Source: Ascaphus truei
Lineage: Eukaryota; Chordata; Amphibia; Anura; Ascaphidae
Length of the DNA stretch: 64,000 bases
Direction: 5' to 3'
NCBI GenBank assembly: GCA_036426205.1
Contig: CM071579.1
Coordinates: 22,038,603 to 22,102,602, forward strand
Positions 6,990 through 63,965 of the stretch are shown one piece after another (the first letter of the stretch is position 1; every line of letters starts with the position of its first letter). The position numbers and the translations under genes are program-made. The notes under the pieces were generated by a model. It saw nothing but the letters and a program-made list of their open reading frames with translations. It searched no databases and had not been told where the DNA came from.

Positions 6990-8768
6990 TGATGTCCCCA
7001 GTGCCTAATTGTTGGCTGCATTTGTTGGAGCATTGCAATGGATACTTACTTAGCACTCCTGCCCCTCTCACCAAGTCTTACTTGGTCTCCCAAGGAGTCC
7101 TGAAGCCTGATACATTTCCATGGGATTTCTACTCTGCAGATTACTTCATTGAATGCCACTAAACACCTGAAATGTCTCCTCGTGTGACACTTGCGGTCTG
7201 CTGTTGTTACACCTGTTCTTTCTTTGTCCTGTCCTGGAGTGAGGACATCTGCAGAGACTTTCTTTTGCTTATCAACTGGCTCACAGCAGGGAGGATACAC
7301 GTGGCATGTTCATTATATTAGCCTTCAGAATGAAGAACAATCAGCAAGTGTAAACTCCAGAGCAAGAGGCAACTGTACATCACTACCTGCTGTTCCAGCT
7401 CCGGGGACTGGTGAATAAATAATAAGACATTTTTCTGAATGAAGCATTAAGGTTATTACTAGTTTATATTATAGGGTAAATAGATTTTATACTACAACCC
7501 CATCAATCTGATTACAGGTTCATCATTATTTTCATGCAGTATGGTGACCAGGATAGGGTTGGCTTGTGTTGGACTCTTGGGACAGTGGTGAATGTGTCCA
7601 TCATGGTTCTGGGAAAAGATGTGCAGATCTTTACTGGTGGTCACCTGTGCGTTCACTTGTGTTTTGTTACCAGAAGGTGTAGGTAAAGTCAGCTTAACTG
7701 CACACTTCCCACAACCCCATGGAATCATCACTGACTGGGCTTTCTTAACACACAACTCAATGGTGAACCGTTGATATGGAAACAAGCTTGTACTCAATGC
7801 TCAGTTTTAAACACAACAACTATGGTTCTTTTCCATTTATAAATTTAAATGTCCTTTTGTGACATAGGTTGCCACTTGTTCAAGTAGATAGAGCTGCAGC
7901 AAGGAAACAATCAGATATGTGATTCTCTTCAAAACAACGAGCCAGTCATAGAGAGAATAAAAAGCTTTTATGTTTATTAATATTTCGCTGCACTAAAAGA
8001 CACTTAGAATCAACCGGCTCTTTATTCCTGAGAAACTGGTTGCTCTCACAGCACTGCAATCACTGGTGCTTTGTGTTACAATTACAGAGGGGGCACCTGC
8101 CAATTCTGGGCCCTCAACATGAACATAGTAACTAGAAACTAAGTGCCCTGAATCTTTACTGACCTCCTCTATAACAGGGACTTATCACTGTTTGAGAGAA
8201 TCTGCTTCTAAATCCAGCAGTGTGCTGGTTAATTGCACACAGGCAATCAACCAGACTCCACCTGGCTGATTAGGACTCTTTGAAAAAACCCGATGTGAGA
8301 AACAGGAGAGAGATTCCGTAACTCACATTTGGGCTGATACAGATTCCTCCATGTGTTCGTGATTTGAAAGAAAACTAAGGGAGAAATATAGTGCAACAAT
8401 GCCAGCAACTGTTAAAGGCTAACACTGTCTGGAACCATAAAACAATGACTCACATGACTACACAAAGACACACAACAAGACAGACATGGGACAAACAATG
8501 ACAAGGCTGAAAAGATATAAGAGCTGATTTAATAGAAAATAAAACAATAAAATGATGATGGATGATTGACAAGAAAGATCGCTGGTCCGGTAGGTTAAAA
8601 CCGAAACCCTACTCAGATAGAATAGGTGATAAATTCAGGCAATGAATAACGGCCGCCACAGAATACACAGTCCTCCTCCGGTCACATCGGAGCTTCCATA
8701 GACCTGCACCTTTGCTTCACCGCGTTCCTCGGGCGGATGTTCCGGCACTGGGAGGCGGGCCTTGGGGA
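6990..8768. other. No gene recognised
   Basis: Mostly unremarkable sequence. The minus-strand frame around 7492-7797 has ordinary amino-acid composition but I recognise no domain, and its flanks do not look like exon borders. The block from about 8100 to 8350 has a somewhat LTR-like texture, without identifiable ends. Confidence 0.4.
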
Positions 8769-8907
8769 GGAAGGTACTTCCTGCTTCCAATTCACTCCTG
8801 ACACGCTGATCTCATCAATCTCGTCAAACAAGATCTGAGAATTGCCCTACGCGTTTCGTGCGCGAGATCAGCGCATCAGGAGTGAATCGGAAGCAGGAAG
8901 TAACTGC
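8769..8907 (-). repeat. Fold-back with hammerhead-like loop (8.8 kb)
   Basis: Arms of about 45 bp ('TACTTCCTGCTTCC...' and its inverse) enclose a loop. The minus strand of the loop reads CCTGATG, a TGCGC/GCGCA hairpin, then CGAAACGCGTAGGG. This resembles the hammerhead layout CTGANGA-stem II-GAAA, but here the 'GA' before stem II is lost. The potential cleavage triplet would be GTA. Confidence 0.55.
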
Positions 8908-9014
8908 CACCTAACCCCACTGCGTCATTTGATGCAGCGCAAGGTAAGGATAGGGCGCAACAACAGAGGAGAGCAGGCAGGGGGGACAAAGCAAAAAAAG
9001 TTTGCTCACCCCTG
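8908..9014 (+). mobile_element. hAT1 MITE, right-end fragment
   Basis: It ends AAAGTTTGCTCACCCCTG, the inverse of the hAT1 left end, and carries the 'GTCATTTGATGCAGCG' and 'GGAGAGCAGGCAGG' words shared with the copies at 23550 and 36414. The left half is missing; the fold-back lies where it should be. Confidence 0.65.
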
Positions 9015-17168: not shown

Positions 17169-17397
17169 TGAGTGCTCATTTGAATGGCATTACCCATAGT
17201 TCCTGGCTGCAGTGGAAGTAATGCATTACCCATAGTTCCTGGCTGCAGTGGAAGTAATGTATGCTGGGTGATTGATTATAGGGTAGTGCAGGTTTGTGGA
17301 CCTGCCTGAGGCATGTTAATGTGCTCAAACGTATTCTTTCTCCTTATTGTACTCTGTACGGTGGGGTGTTTTTGTCACCCTATTACTCACCATAACT
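17169..17397 (+). repeat. Family A repeat, 3' half, with tandem duplication
   Basis: It matches the distal half of the family A copy at 24611 ('GTGCTCATTTG', 'GGCTGCAGTGGAAG', 'GACCTGCCTGAGGCATG'). A 36-bp segment containing 'CCATAGTTCCTGGCTGCAG' is duplicated in tandem at about 17187-17258. The half that would carry the hammerhead-like motif is absent. Confidence 0.7.
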
Positions 17398-17459
17398 TGT
17401 TTGTGTACTTACTGTAGTGTCATGTAACCAAGACCAGTTGCATAATATAGAAGCCATCA

Positions 17460-19858: not shown

Positions 19859-19979
19859 AGAGCACACACATGATGACTTGTAGTTGCAGTTAACCCCTGC
19901 AGAACCTAAAGCAGCAATGCAGAAGGTGCAGACACTGATCCTCACATCACACTGTGTATGTATAATATATATATATATG

Positions 19980-20339
19980 TTATGGTGGGTGAAAAGGTGA
20001 CTAAAAACCCTCCACCGTATAGCATATAACAATATTACTTGTGAGCACATTCACATGTCTTACACAGGTCTGCAAGCCTGCTTTTCACCATTATCTCCTT
20101 GCATACAGTGCTACCACTGTAGTAAGGGATTCTGGGAAATGACATGCAAATGAGCGCACAGTGCCACCTTTTGTCTCAAGACCACATTACAAGGTTAAAC
20201 CCTTAAGCCAATGCATGCTGCTTTAAACACAGCTTTTAAACATAGCCTGGTATGAGATGCAAAGCCAATAAACCCACTCACAGACAGACTGTTTCAACTT
20301 GTGGTCTCATCAGTGTGAGGTTGGTTGTACTGACTTTGC
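19980..20339 (-). repeat. Family A repeat, minus-strand copy
   Basis: The reverse complement aligns along its length with the copy at 24611-24925. It is bordered by a TA microsatellite at 19962-19978, and the env remnant starts directly beyond its other end. It contains the second hammerhead-like structure. The whole unit is about 360 bp and encodes no protein. Confidence 0.8.
20259..20339 (-). ncRNA. Hammerhead-ribozyme-like structure, family A copy 2
   Basis: On the minus strand CTGATGA (20313-20307) is followed by a short hairpin (GAC/GTT), GAAA (20295-20292), and a C...G mini-stem ending in GTC (20285-20283). Outside, CTCACA pairs with TGTGAG, AACC with GGTT, and GCAAAG with CTTTGC. These are the core residues, helix order and GUC cleavage triplet of a type I hammerhead with very short stem III. 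Activity is not shown; isolated stem III of this length is weak and may need a dimer. Confidence 0.45.
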
Positions 20340-20344
20340 AACTT

Positions 20345-24522: not shown

Positions 24523-24610
24523 CCTTCCTAACGGTGGAGGTTTTTTGTTGCCTTTTTCAGCCACCATAACTTAAAATGTATATGGTAAACCTACCCAGCC
24601 TAGAAATATT

Positions 24611-24692
24611 GCAAAGCAAGTATAAACCAACCTCACACTGATGGTACCCATCAAGGTTGAAACATGTCTGTGAGTGGTTTGACTTGCTTTGC
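24611..24692 (+). ncRNA. Hammerhead-ribozyme-like structure, family A copy 1
   Basis: Stem I is built from GCAAAGCAAGT (24611-24621) with ACTTGCTTTGC (24682-24692), AAACCA with TGGTTT, and TCACA with TGTGA: 22 pairs with small bulges. The apex holds CTGATGG (24638-24644), a hairpin ACC/GGT, GAAA (24659-24662), a C-G mini-stem and GTC (24666-24668), placing the predicted cut just before TGTGA. The order matches a type I hammerhead. One core base (the final G of CTGATGG, normally A) is changed, so this copy may be inactive. Confidence 0.5.
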
Positions 24693-24925
24693 TAGTCCCA
24701 TGCTGTGCTTAAAAGCTGTTTGAACGGCGATGCATCTGCTTAAATGGGCTCCATGTGTTTGGATATTCCAGGCAAAAGGTGACACATTGTGTGCTCATTT
24801 GCATGTCATATCCCAGAATCCCTTGCTGCAGTGGAAGCACTGTATGCTAGGTGATAATGGTGAAAGGCAGGGTTGCAGACCTGTCTAAGACATGTGAATG
24901 TGCTCACAATTGATATAGATTATAT
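24611..24925 (+). repeat. Family A repeat, best-preserved copy
   Basis: A dispersed unit of more than 300 bp found here, inverted at 19980-20339, as a 3' half at 17169 and as a fragment at 63912. The 5' end forms a long stem enclosing a hammerhead-like core. The 3' half carries 'GTGCTCATTTGCATG' and 'GCAGACCTGTCTAAGACATG'. No protein frame and no clear terminal inverted repeats, so it may be a retrozyme-like or Penelope-derived non-coding element; that is inference. Confidence 0.75.
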
Positions 24926-25033
24926 ATATAGTAATAATAATCAGCCGGCAAACCATTAGCATAAACGTATAGGTCGGTGCAAGACCCATAAAGAATTTGT
25001 AAGATAACGATAACGTGTTAGTTCCACAAAATC

Positions 25034-30600: not shown

Positions 30601-30654
30601 TTGTAGAAACTTGATACTTGACACATGCCTAAACTTTTCTGTTCTCTACTGCCT

Positions 30655-31625
30655 CCTCCTATTACTACAGCCATTCTATTACTACAGCAACGCTATTACT
30701 ACTGCCTCCTTCTATTACTACAGCCATTCTATTACTACAGCCTTTCTATTACTACTGCCTCCTCCTATTACTACAGCCATTCTATTACTACAGCCATTCT
30801 ATTACTACAGCAATTCTATTACTACTGCCTCCTTCTATTACTACAGCCATTCTATTACTACAGCAATTCTATTACTACTGCCTCCTTCTATTACTACAGC
30901 CATTCTATTACTACTGCCACTTTCTATTACTACAGCCATTCTATTACTACAGCCATCTTCTATTACTACTGCCTCCTTCTATTACTACAGCCATTCTATT
31001 ACTAAAGCCATTCTATTACTACTGCCGCCTTCTATTACTACTGCCTCCTTCTATTACTACAGCCATTCTATTACTACTGCCATTCTATTACTACTGCCAT
31101 TCTATTACTACAGCCATTCTATTGCTACTGCCTCCTTCTATTACTACTGCTTCCTCCTATTACTACATCCCTTATATTACTACTGCCTCCCCCTATTACT
31201 GCAGCCATTCTATTACTACAGCAATTCTATTACTACTGCCTCCTTCTATTACTACAGCCATTCTATTACTACAGCCATTCTATTACTACTGCCACCTTCT
31301 ATTACTACAGCCATTCTATTACTACAGCCATTCTATTGCTACTGCCTCCTTCTATTACTACAGCCATTCTATTACTACAGCCATTTTATTACTACTGCCA
31401 CCTTCTATTACTACAGCCATTCTATTACTACAGCCATTCTATTGCTACTGCCTCCTTCTATTACTACTGCCTCCTTCTATTACTACTGCCATTCTATTAC
31501 TACTGCCATTCTATTACTACAGCCATTCTATTACTACAGCCATTCTATTACTACAGCCATTCTATTACTACAGCCATTCTATTACTACTGCCTCCTGCTA
31601 TTACTACTGCCTCCTGCTTTTACTA
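30655..31625 (+). repeat. 1-kb minisatellite, 17-19-bp units
   Basis: Tandem units of TCTATTACTACAGCCAT (17 bp) and TCTATTACTACTGCCTCCT (19 bp) types fill nearly 1 kb. The unit lacks stop codons in all three plus frames, so long Thr/Leu/Tyr-rich frames (405, 187, 126 and 96 residues) overlap each other; they are artefacts. Variant units are interspersed, not blocked, which suggests ongoing unequal exchange. Confidence 0.95.
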
Positions 31626-40137: not shown

Positions 40138-40375
40138 ATAATAATAATAGCATGTTCTTGTATAGCGCTGCTAATTTTTACGCAGCGCTGTACAGAGACA
40201 TTTTGCAGGCACAGGTCCCTGCCCCGTGGAGCTTACAATCTATGCTTTTTTGGGGGGTGCCTGAGGCACAGGGAGATAAAGTGACATGCCCAAGGTCACA
40301 AGGAATTGAACCAGGCTGCCCTGCAACAATCTCAGTGTCAGTCAGTGTCTTTACTCACTGAGCCGCTCCTTCTCC
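40138..40375 (-). mobile_element. MIR-like tRNA-derived SINE
   Basis: On the minus strand it begins GGAGAAGGAGCGGCTCAGTG. It has a Pol III A-box-like region (complement of 40349-40367) and a B box GGTTCAATTCC (complement of 40302-40312), then 'ACCTTGGGCATGTCACTTTA' and 'AGATTGTAAGCTCC' CORE/MIR-type words. It ends in an L2-type tail ('GTACAGCGCTGCGT') and ATT repeats. About 240 bp, near full length. Confidence 0.85.
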
Positions 40376-40467
40376 AATATATGTCAAAGTAAAGTGGTCA
40401 CATTGATAACAACTACAATGGTATACCCCAAGTATACCCCACTGACAATAGAAGAGAACATATTTAC

Positions 40468-43009
40468 GAAAAGCCAACAAGCCGGGATACCCTTCTTGCC
40501 AATAAAATTGGGAATAGGACACCAAATTACCACATACAATCTATTCGAAAGCAGGGGGGGGAACCTTACCTCTAATCCTAGGCAGATTGTGGAGGAGTTC
40601 AAATCCTCCTACGAAAAGCTTTATGATGGAGATAAGGTTGACCATAATCAGAAAACAAGAGACAATGTGAAGGGGTTCTTAAAAGAGGCACAGCTACCGG
40701 CATTGTGCAGAGAGGAGCGGGAAGCATTACAGAAAGACTTCTCAGTAGAGGAGCTGGCAGAGGTAATAAAGTCACTCAAACCAGCAAAGGCGCCAGGACC
40801 AGGTGGCTTCTCAAACCTATATTTTAAAAAATACTTGAAAATCCTAGCTCCACACCTATTAAAATTATTCAATTCAATTTTGACGGGGGCCTCATTCCCA
40901 GCACAAATGCTGCAGGCGTCTATCTCCCTGATCCATAAACCTGGAAAGGACCCGGCAGATTGTAAGAGCTACCGGCCCATTTCTCTGATTAATTCTGACA
41001 TTAATATATTCTCCAAAAAATCGACTGGCCTTACCTAGAAGAGACGCTGAAAGTATTCGGCTTTCAGGAACGCCTCCTGAGGGCCATACTGGCACTGTAC
41101 GAGGGGCCAACAGCGAGGGTGCAACACCAGGGCTTCCCATCAGATCATTTTCATATCCGCAGTGGAACAAGGCAGGGTTGCCCTTTGTCCCCGTTACTGT
41201 TTGCCCTGTGTGTAGAACCCCTAGCAGCGCATGTGAGACTAAACCCCGATGTAGCTGGGATATCGCTAAAGGAGCAGTCACATAAAGTGGCACTATACGC
41301 GGATGACATGATTTTGACGTTGTCAAACCCACTTACCTCTCTGCCCAATGTCATTCCGATTCTGGGGAGATTCAACCAAATCTCAGGGTTCAAAATTAAT
41401 CAGGCCAAATCAGAAGCCCTCAACATAAATTTGCCCAAAGCAGTAGAAAAGCTGATTGAGTTCAATTTTAATTTTAAATGGCAAACCTCCGAGATCAAAT
41501 ATTTAGGGGTTAATATCACAAAGGACTACAAAGCTTTCTATAAGGCTAATTATCCCAGGTTGTTTAAGACTCTAGGAGAGGATCTCATGAGATGGGCGGA
41601 GTGTGGCATCTCTTGGATCGGGAGGATTCACAGTGTGAAGATGAATCTCCTTCCAAGGGTGCTATACCTTTTCCAGGCCCTCCCAATCCCCCTGCTAAAA
41701 GATGACATCCTCGCTCTACAGTCGAGAATAATAAAGTTTATCTGGAACAAAAAAAAGTCAGAAAATTAAGAAATCTATCTTGAGGAGGCCGACCTTGAGG
41801 GTAGGGGGGTTTAGCGGTACACTGCTTGTTGACATACTATAAGGCGGCGCAACTATGTCAAATTATACAGTGGCACTCAGATCCGGGGCTCCGGAAAGGG
41901 AGTGTTGTGCACCAGTTGAGCTGCACAACTTAATTTGGTTACCTAAAAAATTTAGGACTACAGTAGGAAAGACGCTGCAGGCTATCTCTAACTCCTTGGC
42001 GGTGTGGGAGGCCTCTAAATTTAGCTGTTCTCTCACCACTAAGACCTCCTTGATGACACCACCGATCGGCAACACAGATTTTGCTCCGGGACTGAATAGC
42101 GCTAATTTCTCACGGTGGATCCAGTCGAGATATTTGAGACTGAAGGATCTGGAGGATAGAAAACATATCAAAACATTCGAGCACATTAAAGCCGAAAAAG
42201 GTTTACCAAATACTGAATTGTTCAGATACCTCCAGATCAGAGCGTTCTTCAATAAATTCCCAATTCAGCCGGCCAGAACAAATTTTGAGCAGCTGTGTTC
42301 TAGAGGAACGGACACAAGGGGACTAACGTCTAGGATGTACGGGGAGGTGATCTGTCCTGAGACTGAAGACGAACCGAGACTAAGTTATTTCAGACAATGG
42401 GAAGCAGATCTAGGGGAGACTTTAGAGGACGAGGACTGGGACAGGATCCTGCAGGCAGCAGCTAAAAGTTCGATCTGCGTTACGTTAAAGGAGAACGCAT
42501 ATAAGGTCCTTATGCGTTGGTACCATGCCCCACTTAAATTATCCAAATTTGTCAGAGGATATTCCCCGCTTTGTCCCAAGCAATGTGGGGAAATAGCTGA
42601 CTTGCGTCACATGTTGTGGTCTTGCACGAAGGTGGTTCCGATTTGGGAAAAAATTAGAGACTGTCTGCAAAGGTTACTCGGCTTGGAGATTCCCCTGAAT
42701 CCATGGCTGTTCTTGCTGGGCAGATGAATCCAGGGTGTGTCGAACGCGACACATAAATTGGTGGCACATTTTGCCACCGCCACGCGATGCGAGATCGCAG
42801 CTTTGTGGAAACAAGCTGATTTACCAATCATACCCGTGATCAGGAATAGGATTTGGCATGTGTGCAAGATGGAGCAGTTGACGAGTTTGGTCAATGACTC
42901 CGGCCCAAACTTTCTAAAGGTCTGGTCGCCTTGGTTTGCCCAGACGACATCCCGGGGGTGGATGCTACCACAATATTGCAGTGATAGAAGGAAATGCGTT
43001 CTCCGGTAA
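40468..43009 (+). pseudogene. L1 ORF2 reverse-transcriptase pseudogene
   Basis: Four pieces. 40468-41037 holds the start of RT ('KAPGPGGF', 'SYRPISLIN'). 41019-41766 holds 'RQGCPLSPLLFAL' and YADDM (motif C, near 41298). 41855-42727 ends with CPKQCGEIADLRHMLWSC, the CX3CX7HX4C of L1 ORF2. 42728-43009 has the last residues in another frame. An internal deletion between 'PISLIN' and 'IDWPYLEE' (near 41010-41020) removes RT motif A with its first catalytic Asp, perhaps 70-80 codons. A stop at 41767 and a frame change at 42725 add to this. Confidence 0.9.

Positions 43010-63861: not shown

Positions 63862-63908
<47 letters not shown>
63860..63908. repeat. TA microsatellite
   Basis: About 48 bp of TA repeats at the outer edge of the palindrome; a shorter TA run at 63203-63218 marks the opposite edge. 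Confidence 0.95.
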
Positions 63909-63910
<2 letters not shown>

Positions 63911-63911
63911 A

Positions 63912-63965
63912 ATATAACTGTATGCTCATCTGCATGTCTTAGGCAGGTCTGCAACCTCGCCTTTA
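63912..63965 (-). repeat. Family A fragment
   Basis: 'GTATGCTCATCTGCATGTC' and 'TAGGCAGGTCTGCAACC' match the distal part of family A in minus orientation. The hammerhead-like part is absent. Confidence 0.55.

Follow-up and report, generated by a model that had tools for sequence, protein, structure and literature searches.

The hammerhead flagged in the window, as we call the whole 64-kb stretch of DNA analysed here, lies in a dispersed, non-coding repeat of about 400 bp, and the sequence makes it likely that this repeat carries its own snRNA-type promoter, that its RNA cuts itself mostly when two RNAs pair, and that it enters TA-rich DNA by target-primed reverse transcription. The repeat would most likely be an anuran retrozyme and the counterpart of newt satellite 2. 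The repeat bears on two questions, how a ribozyme retroelement is transcribed and how its RNA returns to the genome; a single genome offers an snRNA-type promoter layout with constant distances, (TA)n junctions that favour the 3′ side and a preference for two 3′ ends, and therefore both questions become directly testable. In line with the earlier note, which had this repeat family descend from a self-cleaving RNA, the sibling cores, the Rfam passes and the covariation of stem I support such a descent.

The flagged copy of the ~405-bp repeat, copy 1, extends over 24528-24930(+), with the unit start placed just 5′ of the PSE block, and contains at 24611-24692(+) a degenerate hammerhead of type I, whose stem I is long and whose helix order and cleavage position match the type I plan. 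Specifically, stem I on the forward strand comprises an outer block of 11 pairs, GCAAAGCAAGT/ACTTGCTTTGC (24611-24621 with 24682-24692), a middle block AAACCA/TGGTTT (24624-24629 with 24675-24680) and an inner block CTCACA/TGTGAG (24632-24637 with 24669-24674); all three blocks that the earlier note had described are present, but the inner one has 6 pairs, one above the count given there. The core CTGATGG (24638-24644, +), in which A9 is replaced by G relative to the CTGATGA of the siblings, is followed by stem II, TACC-CATCAA-GGTT (24645-24658, +; TACC at 24645-24648, GGTT at 24655-24658), with a T-T mismatch at its base. The segment 24659-24668(+) holds GAAA (24659-24662), a one-pair stem III, C-AT-G (24663-24666; palindrome ACATGT), and GTC ending at 24668, and cleavage is predicted between 24668 and 24669 on the same strand. 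All elements from the core to GTC lie at the positions that had been assigned to them.

A type I descriptor, in which A9 was relaxed to A/G after the flagged copy had been seen and in order to admit it, finds 2 sites in the 64-kb window, both inside repeat copies, as against 3 hits in 150 dinucleotide shuffles. The flagged strand folds better than 200 of 200 shuffles (z -5.0), its best fold as a lone copy being a long hairpin, and a competing hairpin, GATGG-TAC-CCATC, overlaps the core. Forcing the hammerhead on single copies costs 9.5 kcal/mol in copy 1 and 7.5 kcal/mol in copy 2, the second copy in the window. At a threshold as loose as E ≤ 10, Rfam still finds no hammerhead in the flagged copy, and whole-window Rfam scans report neither the copy 1 nor the copy 2 hammerhead. 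Because A9 is G in this copy, alone among 30 extracted ribozymes, and because of the T-T at the base of stem II and the competing hairpin, we reject the reading of the flagged copy as a working ribozyme. It is a mutated and presumably inactive copy, from a degenerate subfamily of a real hammerhead repeat family.

Genome searches covered the 2.82-Gb assembly that contains the window. Of 3131 candidates 40 were scored; the 39 other than copy 1 are the best-scored relatives and have 95-97% identity to it along most of the query length, which suggests, rather than proves, that the flagged subfamily is young, since these relatives are the best of many. A search with copy 2 leads to another subfamily, and copy number can be gauged from preliminary, loosely defined candidates (3131 and 7077), of which 40 each were scored. 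From 25 loci of the flagged-subfamily set come 20 ribozymes, namely the flagged copy and 19 siblings, and 19 of 19 siblings read CTGATGA. Over both subfamilies, 30 ribozymes were extracted from 29 of 55 loci by a pattern that left A9 free and required GAAA/GAGA and TC (26 loci have no pattern match). Canonical CTGATGA is read by 25 of them, CTGACGA by 3, CTGAAGA by 1 and CTGATGG by the flagged copy; CTGANGA is present in 29 of the 30, with the flagged copy failing at A9.

Scoring with the Rfam hammerhead models, as the earlier note had advised, succeeds in other subfamilies but fails for the flagged copy, its sibling L002 and copy 2. Hammerhead_1 has 8 matches at or above the gathering score of 34 bits, spread over 7 of the 20 sibling loci examined and with 41.5 bits as the best; across the genome, the Rfam model places 42 sites at or above gathering among 74 that were scored out of 344,898 candidates, the best at 48.8 bits, while the same search of 14 control genomes gives hits in none. 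The flagged subfamily is not recognised by Rfam in any of three loci (L002, L003 and L005) despite their canonical cores, and L002, which reads CTGATGA, has no Rfam hammerhead at E ≤ 10. Because of the T-T at the stem II base and the 2-nt stem III loop, the ribozyme of this subfamily may be weak, or the subfamily may spread with no need of it; its hammerhead would either be a ribozyme that works only as a dimer, or belong to an element that spread without a good ribozyme. A third subfamily (L084, L071, L072, L078, L083 and L088) has the stem I block CCCACA/TGTGGG, mostly with a GCATACCCAG/CTGGGTATGC-like outer stem, and relative to the flagged subfamily several pairs of its stem I are swapped together. 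Viral contigs scanned with the body motif of the repeat give no match.

Further copies lie in the window. Copy 2 (19960-20341, -), of the other subfamily, runs in the order hammerhead, DSE, PSE and then (TA)n. Its hammerhead (20259-20340, -) has the canonical CTGATGA, with C3 at 20313 and predicted cleavage after C 20283, and the segment 20319-20277(-) receives 28.7 bits from Hammerhead_1 (E 3.3e-5 when 351 nt are searched), short of the 34 bits needed for gathering. In copies 1 and 2 alike, all 11 outer pairs of stem I are kept, one of them through a double change from A-T to C-G. Copy 3 (17169-17400, +) retains a decayed octamer, a doubled SPH-like block and a PSE-like box, and a descriptor search finds no hammerhead in it; at 17169-17262 of this decayed copy the SPH-like block forms a tandem duplicate with 36-nt spacing, a doubled enhancer-like box. 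Copy 4 (63897-63964, -) is a body fragment adjoining (TA)n. GC is 42% in copy 1 and 41% in copy 2, no frame of at least 60 aa is confined to the repeat unit, and no coding sequence was found in the unit.

The window also holds elements of other kinds. A palindromic stretch at 8766-8911, which the MIR5185 miRNA model scores at 50.5 bits on one strand against a gathering score of 101.7, is probably another inverted-repeat element. Broken frames of a LINE-type reverse transcriptase occupy 40310-42727, and the frame at 41005-41769 has its best named relatives in Leptobrachium leishanense (46% identity) and Xenopus tropicalis (41%), which points to a frog as host. A long tandem array at 30638-31592, with spacings of 17, 36 and 53 nt and open frames full of ITTAILLLLPPS-like repeats, is probably a minisatellite and not a gene. 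Two long inverted repeats, 63200-63468/63612-63880 and 32771-32998/33379-33606, with 99-100% identity over 228-269 nt, are perhaps recent foldback insertions.

The structure of the ribozyme was followed in an alignment of 38 sequences (27 pattern-located among 30 Rfam loci, nine chosen siblings and the two window copies), in which 88.7% of cells are paired. In stem I, a change on both sides is seen in 39 cells; shuffles give 18.6 (none of 500 reached 39), and sliding the partners gives 7-15. Single columns exchange their pairs: columns 8/88 are AU in 14 and UA in 10 (11 unpaired), columns 10/86 GC in 24 and CG in 7 (4 unpaired), and columns 27/70 UA in 23, CG in 11 and UG in 4. One pair of stem III exchanges A-U and G-C. 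The compensatory changes expected of a hammerhead are therefore found in stem I by the count of double-side changes, but for two of the five covariation measures, namely the number of pairs changed on both sides and that of further pair types, the alignment is no higher than its shuffles, and stem II is near-invariant across the 38 ribozymes, so that covariation gives no test of it.

Stem III is an exact palindrome in 20 of the 38 ribozymes (CAGCTG in 14, CGGCCG in 3, CATG in 3), and in 7 it reads CGGCTG, which self-pairs via G-U. Such palindromes would fit a pairing of two hammerheads, and they agree with the proposal that these ribozymes can work as dimers. Left unconstrained, RNAalifold does not arrive at the three-way junction for the consensus. 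When copy 1 is folded as a dimer, its stem III pairs and a hairpin occupies the core, with no full double hammerhead, and the dimer fold of copy 2 contains no double hammerhead either.

Promoter-like boxes accompany the ribozyme at regular distances. In copy 1, a PSE-like CACCATAAC lies at 24562-24570(+), 76 nt 5′ of the core, and a DSE-like block consists of the octamer ATTTGCAT (24797-24804, +) and, 5 nt past it, an SPH/Staf(ZNF143)-like box (24810-24827, +). In copy 2, the octamer and SPH-like block (20121-20151, -) has 1 mismatch and the PSE-like CACCATAAC (19979-19987, -) lies 164 nt past the octamer start. The combination of octamer and SPH-like box matches the window twice, in copies 1 and 2, against 0.01 expected; the same pattern with a 4-nt gap has no match, because the gap is 5 nt. 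Among 27 hammerheads for whose choice the Rfam model was the sole criterion and promoter motifs played no part, ATTTGCAT followed after 5 nt by an SPH/Staf-like box (≤4 mismatches) is present in 21, compared with 0 of 1500 random 420-nt segments, and the block lies 118-131 nt past the cleavage site in 20 of these 21 and at 90 nt in the remaining one. CACCATAAC (≤1 mismatch) stands 68-78 nt before the core in 13 of the 27, whereas 56 of 3000 random 140-nt segments have a match anywhere. A PSE past the DSE is seen in 7 of the 27, with an octamer-to-PSE distance of 164-166 nt in 3 of them and of 160, 177, 240 and 252 nt in the others. The PSE block reads TTTT[CT]AC[CT]CACCATAACTTAA in 18 of 38 copies that were chosen for exact CACCATAAC, only the letters outside CACCATAAC being independent. 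A PSE pattern at 3 mismatches is weak (7 matches, 6.3 expected), and the conservation profile peaks at the hammerhead and at the DSE, with no clear peak at the PSE region, against which copies lacking the PSE part count. Taken together, the PSE-like box and the octamer with its SPH-like box, at constant spacing, suggest that the ~405-bp unit contains the layout of a vertebrate snRNA-type promoter.

The SPH consensus in use and the comparison with the U6 PSE are ones that we take to be right, some SPH and PSE consensus letters being presumed, and the SPH-like pattern alone is barely above chance (7 matches, 3.6 expected). Both points would suit a true hammerhead repeat whose resemblance to octamer, SPH and PSE is incidental or decayed and whose transcription occurs by read-through, as a 2020 review suggests for retrozymes in the passages cited (PMC7761336). 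We consider this reading unlikely. Order and spacing of the boxes are constant in copies that were chosen without regard to promoter motifs, and the octamer-to-PSE distance of 164 nt in copy 2, and of 164-166 nt in 3 of 7 loci, compares with 155 nt from octamer start to PSE in chicken 7SK, as given in part of PMC2235858. In addition, an snRNA promoter used by Pol II has been ascribed to newt satellite 2 (a passage of PMC2220036 citing Coats 1994).

Within the unit, the PSE-like box is followed about 75 nt later by the hammerhead, the octamer and SPH-like box come about 125 nt past the cleavage site, and in some copies the next PSE stands about 165 nt beyond these. The tandem period is 400-409 nt in nine loci (the hammerheads of L084 lie 403 nt apart), and sibling units run on in tandem past the position equivalent to 24916 of the flagged copy. 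By end calls that rest on BLAST extents, 23 subfamily-1 insertions, selected for the best matches of nearly full length, cover 398-695 nt with a median of 501, and 56 other insertions span 237-775 nt; some therefore exceed one unit and some are shorter, and partial units often adjoin a full one. A (TA)4+ run is found at the 3′ end of 14 of the 23 and 29 of the 56 insertions (43/79) and at the 5′ end of 3 and 9 of them, respectively (12/79), against a background of 1.2% of the window's 50-nt stretches or 12 of 138 stretches at locus edges. Ends fall at two AU-rich sites in 57 of the 79 insertions (32 past the PSE, 25 past the body) and elsewhere in 22. Inverted pieces, a habit of Penelope-like elements (PLEs), lie beside 8 of the 23 and 15 of the 56. 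In the fetched loci, of 1-3.4 kb each, the insertions at (TA)n consist of partial units or of a few units, and none forms a long array.

This style of insertion raises the question whether the repeat is a pseudo-LTR or an internally deleted fragment of a PLE, with the hammerhead as the minimal PLE ribozyme. Insertion in tandem or partial tandem, cleavage at AT-rich sites and a reverse transcription that starts internally are described for one PLE in parts of PMC11167929, the inverted pieces point the same way, and GIY-YIG loci exist in the genome (16 matches among 150 of 697 candidates scored), one of them with a 560-aa open frame and an RT-like YIDD motif read by eye, where Pfam reports GIY-YIG only. 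However, the unit has no detectable coding sequence, its ribozyme is an extended type I form with a long stem I and not the minimal form, and in 12 GIY-YIG loci, taken with about 1.5 kb on each side, a pattern search finds no hammerhead and BLAST finds nothing convincingly similar to the repeat (one 39-nt match, E 0.002). A PLE fragment is thus quite improbable; we rejected the filing of the repeat under PLEs as unsupported, and the PLE link drawn in the earlier note is not shown by these searches. Because neither a hammerhead nor convincing repeat similarity lies within about 1.5 kb of these 12 loci, a PLE as the partner in reverse transcription is a guess, drawn from the insertion style (PMC11167929, in part).

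Spread as DNA, by extrachromosomal circles or by slippage in (TA)n and not through RNA, would suit the copies with (TA)n at both ends and the occurrence of tandem units, but we hold it to be very improbable, as both the 3′/5′ asymmetry of (TA)n and the clustered 3′ ends resemble target-primed reverse transcription. An ordinary imperfect hairpin, belonging to a non-autonomous DNA transposon or a simple satellite and resembling a hammerhead by accident, is scarcely credible and already largely refuted: it would explain why a long hairpin is the best fold of the flagged copy by itself and why Rfam scores neither this copy nor its close sibling L002, but related copies exceed the Rfam gathering score, stem I covaries, and, among copies picked for the hammerhead, conservation within the unit is highest at the core.

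For the preferred reading, a retrozyme with its own promoter, we propose the following course. In a tandem arrangement, the DSE would lie about 165 nt upstream of the PSE and the PSE about 75 nt upstream of the next hammerhead, each copy supplying DSE and PSE upstream of the next unit, and SNAPc-dependent Pol II would therefore start transcription near the 5′ strand of stem I. The palindromic stem III loops (CAGCTG, CGGCCG and CATG) could then pair two hammerheads and free unit-length RNA, and this RNA, or a circular form of it, would carry the promoter along, because the promoter sits inside each unit. A reverse transcriptase borrowed from another retroelement, with a PLE as candidate, might start at the AU-rich sites annealed to nicked (TA)n and would sometimes run over more than one unit, rebuilding promoter and ribozyme at the new site.

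A more far-reaching version, which we offer tentatively and regard as possible rather than probable, is that the repeat is a circular-RNA retroelement of frogs that perpetuates itself and in which the hammerhead separates the parts of the snRNA-type promoter, such that only an insertion of more than one unit rebuilds the working order of DSE, PSE and ribozyme. Such insertions would arise by reverse transcription running round the circle from (TA)n-primed AU sites. If this is true, the snRNA machinery would transcribe a non-coding element, and this element would home to TA microsatellites. The repeat would then stand to newt satellite 2 as its anuran sister and might be where the amniote intronic hammerheads came from.

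Amphibian hammerhead repeats and retrozymes are a known kind, and hammerhead repeats of Xenopus tropicalis are in print (PMC3088659, in part). As far as our searches show, the snRNA-type promoter layout and the (TA)n junctions are the new parts in an anuran hammerhead repeat; an snRNA-type promoter in a frog hammerhead repeat was not found described in the open-licence literature. In the passages cited from PMC7229834, a metazoan non-LTR retrozyme is a tandem-capable repeat of 150-450 bp with a type I hammerhead and GC below 50%; the period of the present repeat in nine loci and the GC of copies 1 and 2 lie within these bounds of size, tandem arrangement and composition.

Xenopus tropicalis has hammerheads in interspersed repeats that resemble the intronic ribozymes of RECK and C10orf118, according to part of PMC3088659, and the present repeat is likened to them, by description only, as another frog interspersed repeat with hammerheads. 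With PLEs that have minimal hammerheads, it shares tandem and partial units, AT-rich targets and internal initiation; PLEs, however, encode a reverse transcriptase with GIY-YIG (PMC11167929, in part), whereas no coding sequence was found here and the hammerhead is not minimal. Regarding the promoter, plant and animal retrozymes seem to have none, by the account in the cited passages of the 2020 review (PMC7761336). The vertebrate DSE combines an octamer with an SPH box near -220, and the PSE lies near -55 (passages of PMC2235858, PMC3499247 and PMC7279448). The octamer-SPH gap is 4 bp in chicken 7SK (PMC2235858, in part) and 5 nt in the repeat. Unlike the promoters of snRNA and 7SK genes, the boxes of the repeat are split around the ribozyme and come into line only across a tandem or circular junction.

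The closest likeness is with newt satellite 2 and the axolotl retrozymes Rtz_331 and Rtz_353, described in the cited parts of PMC7229834 as type I hammerhead repeats with tandem units of about 330-350 bp, and with a pairing of two hammerheads recorded for newt and axolotl. Type I topology, a very short stem III and a palindromic loop are common to these and the present repeat, and one axolotl retrozyme type shares with the flagged subfamily a U-U mismatch at the foot of helix II (PMC7229834, in part). Unlike the newt and axolotl units, to which it is likened by description, the present repeat is anuran, has a unit of about 405 bp and forms no long array in the fetched loci. The snRNA promoter of newt satellite 2 is said to be used by Pol II (PMC2220036, in part), and the PSE-, octamer- and SPH-like boxes of the repeat are a candidate for such a promoter. 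If the preferred reading is true, the repeat would extend the plan of newt satellite 2 to an anuran.
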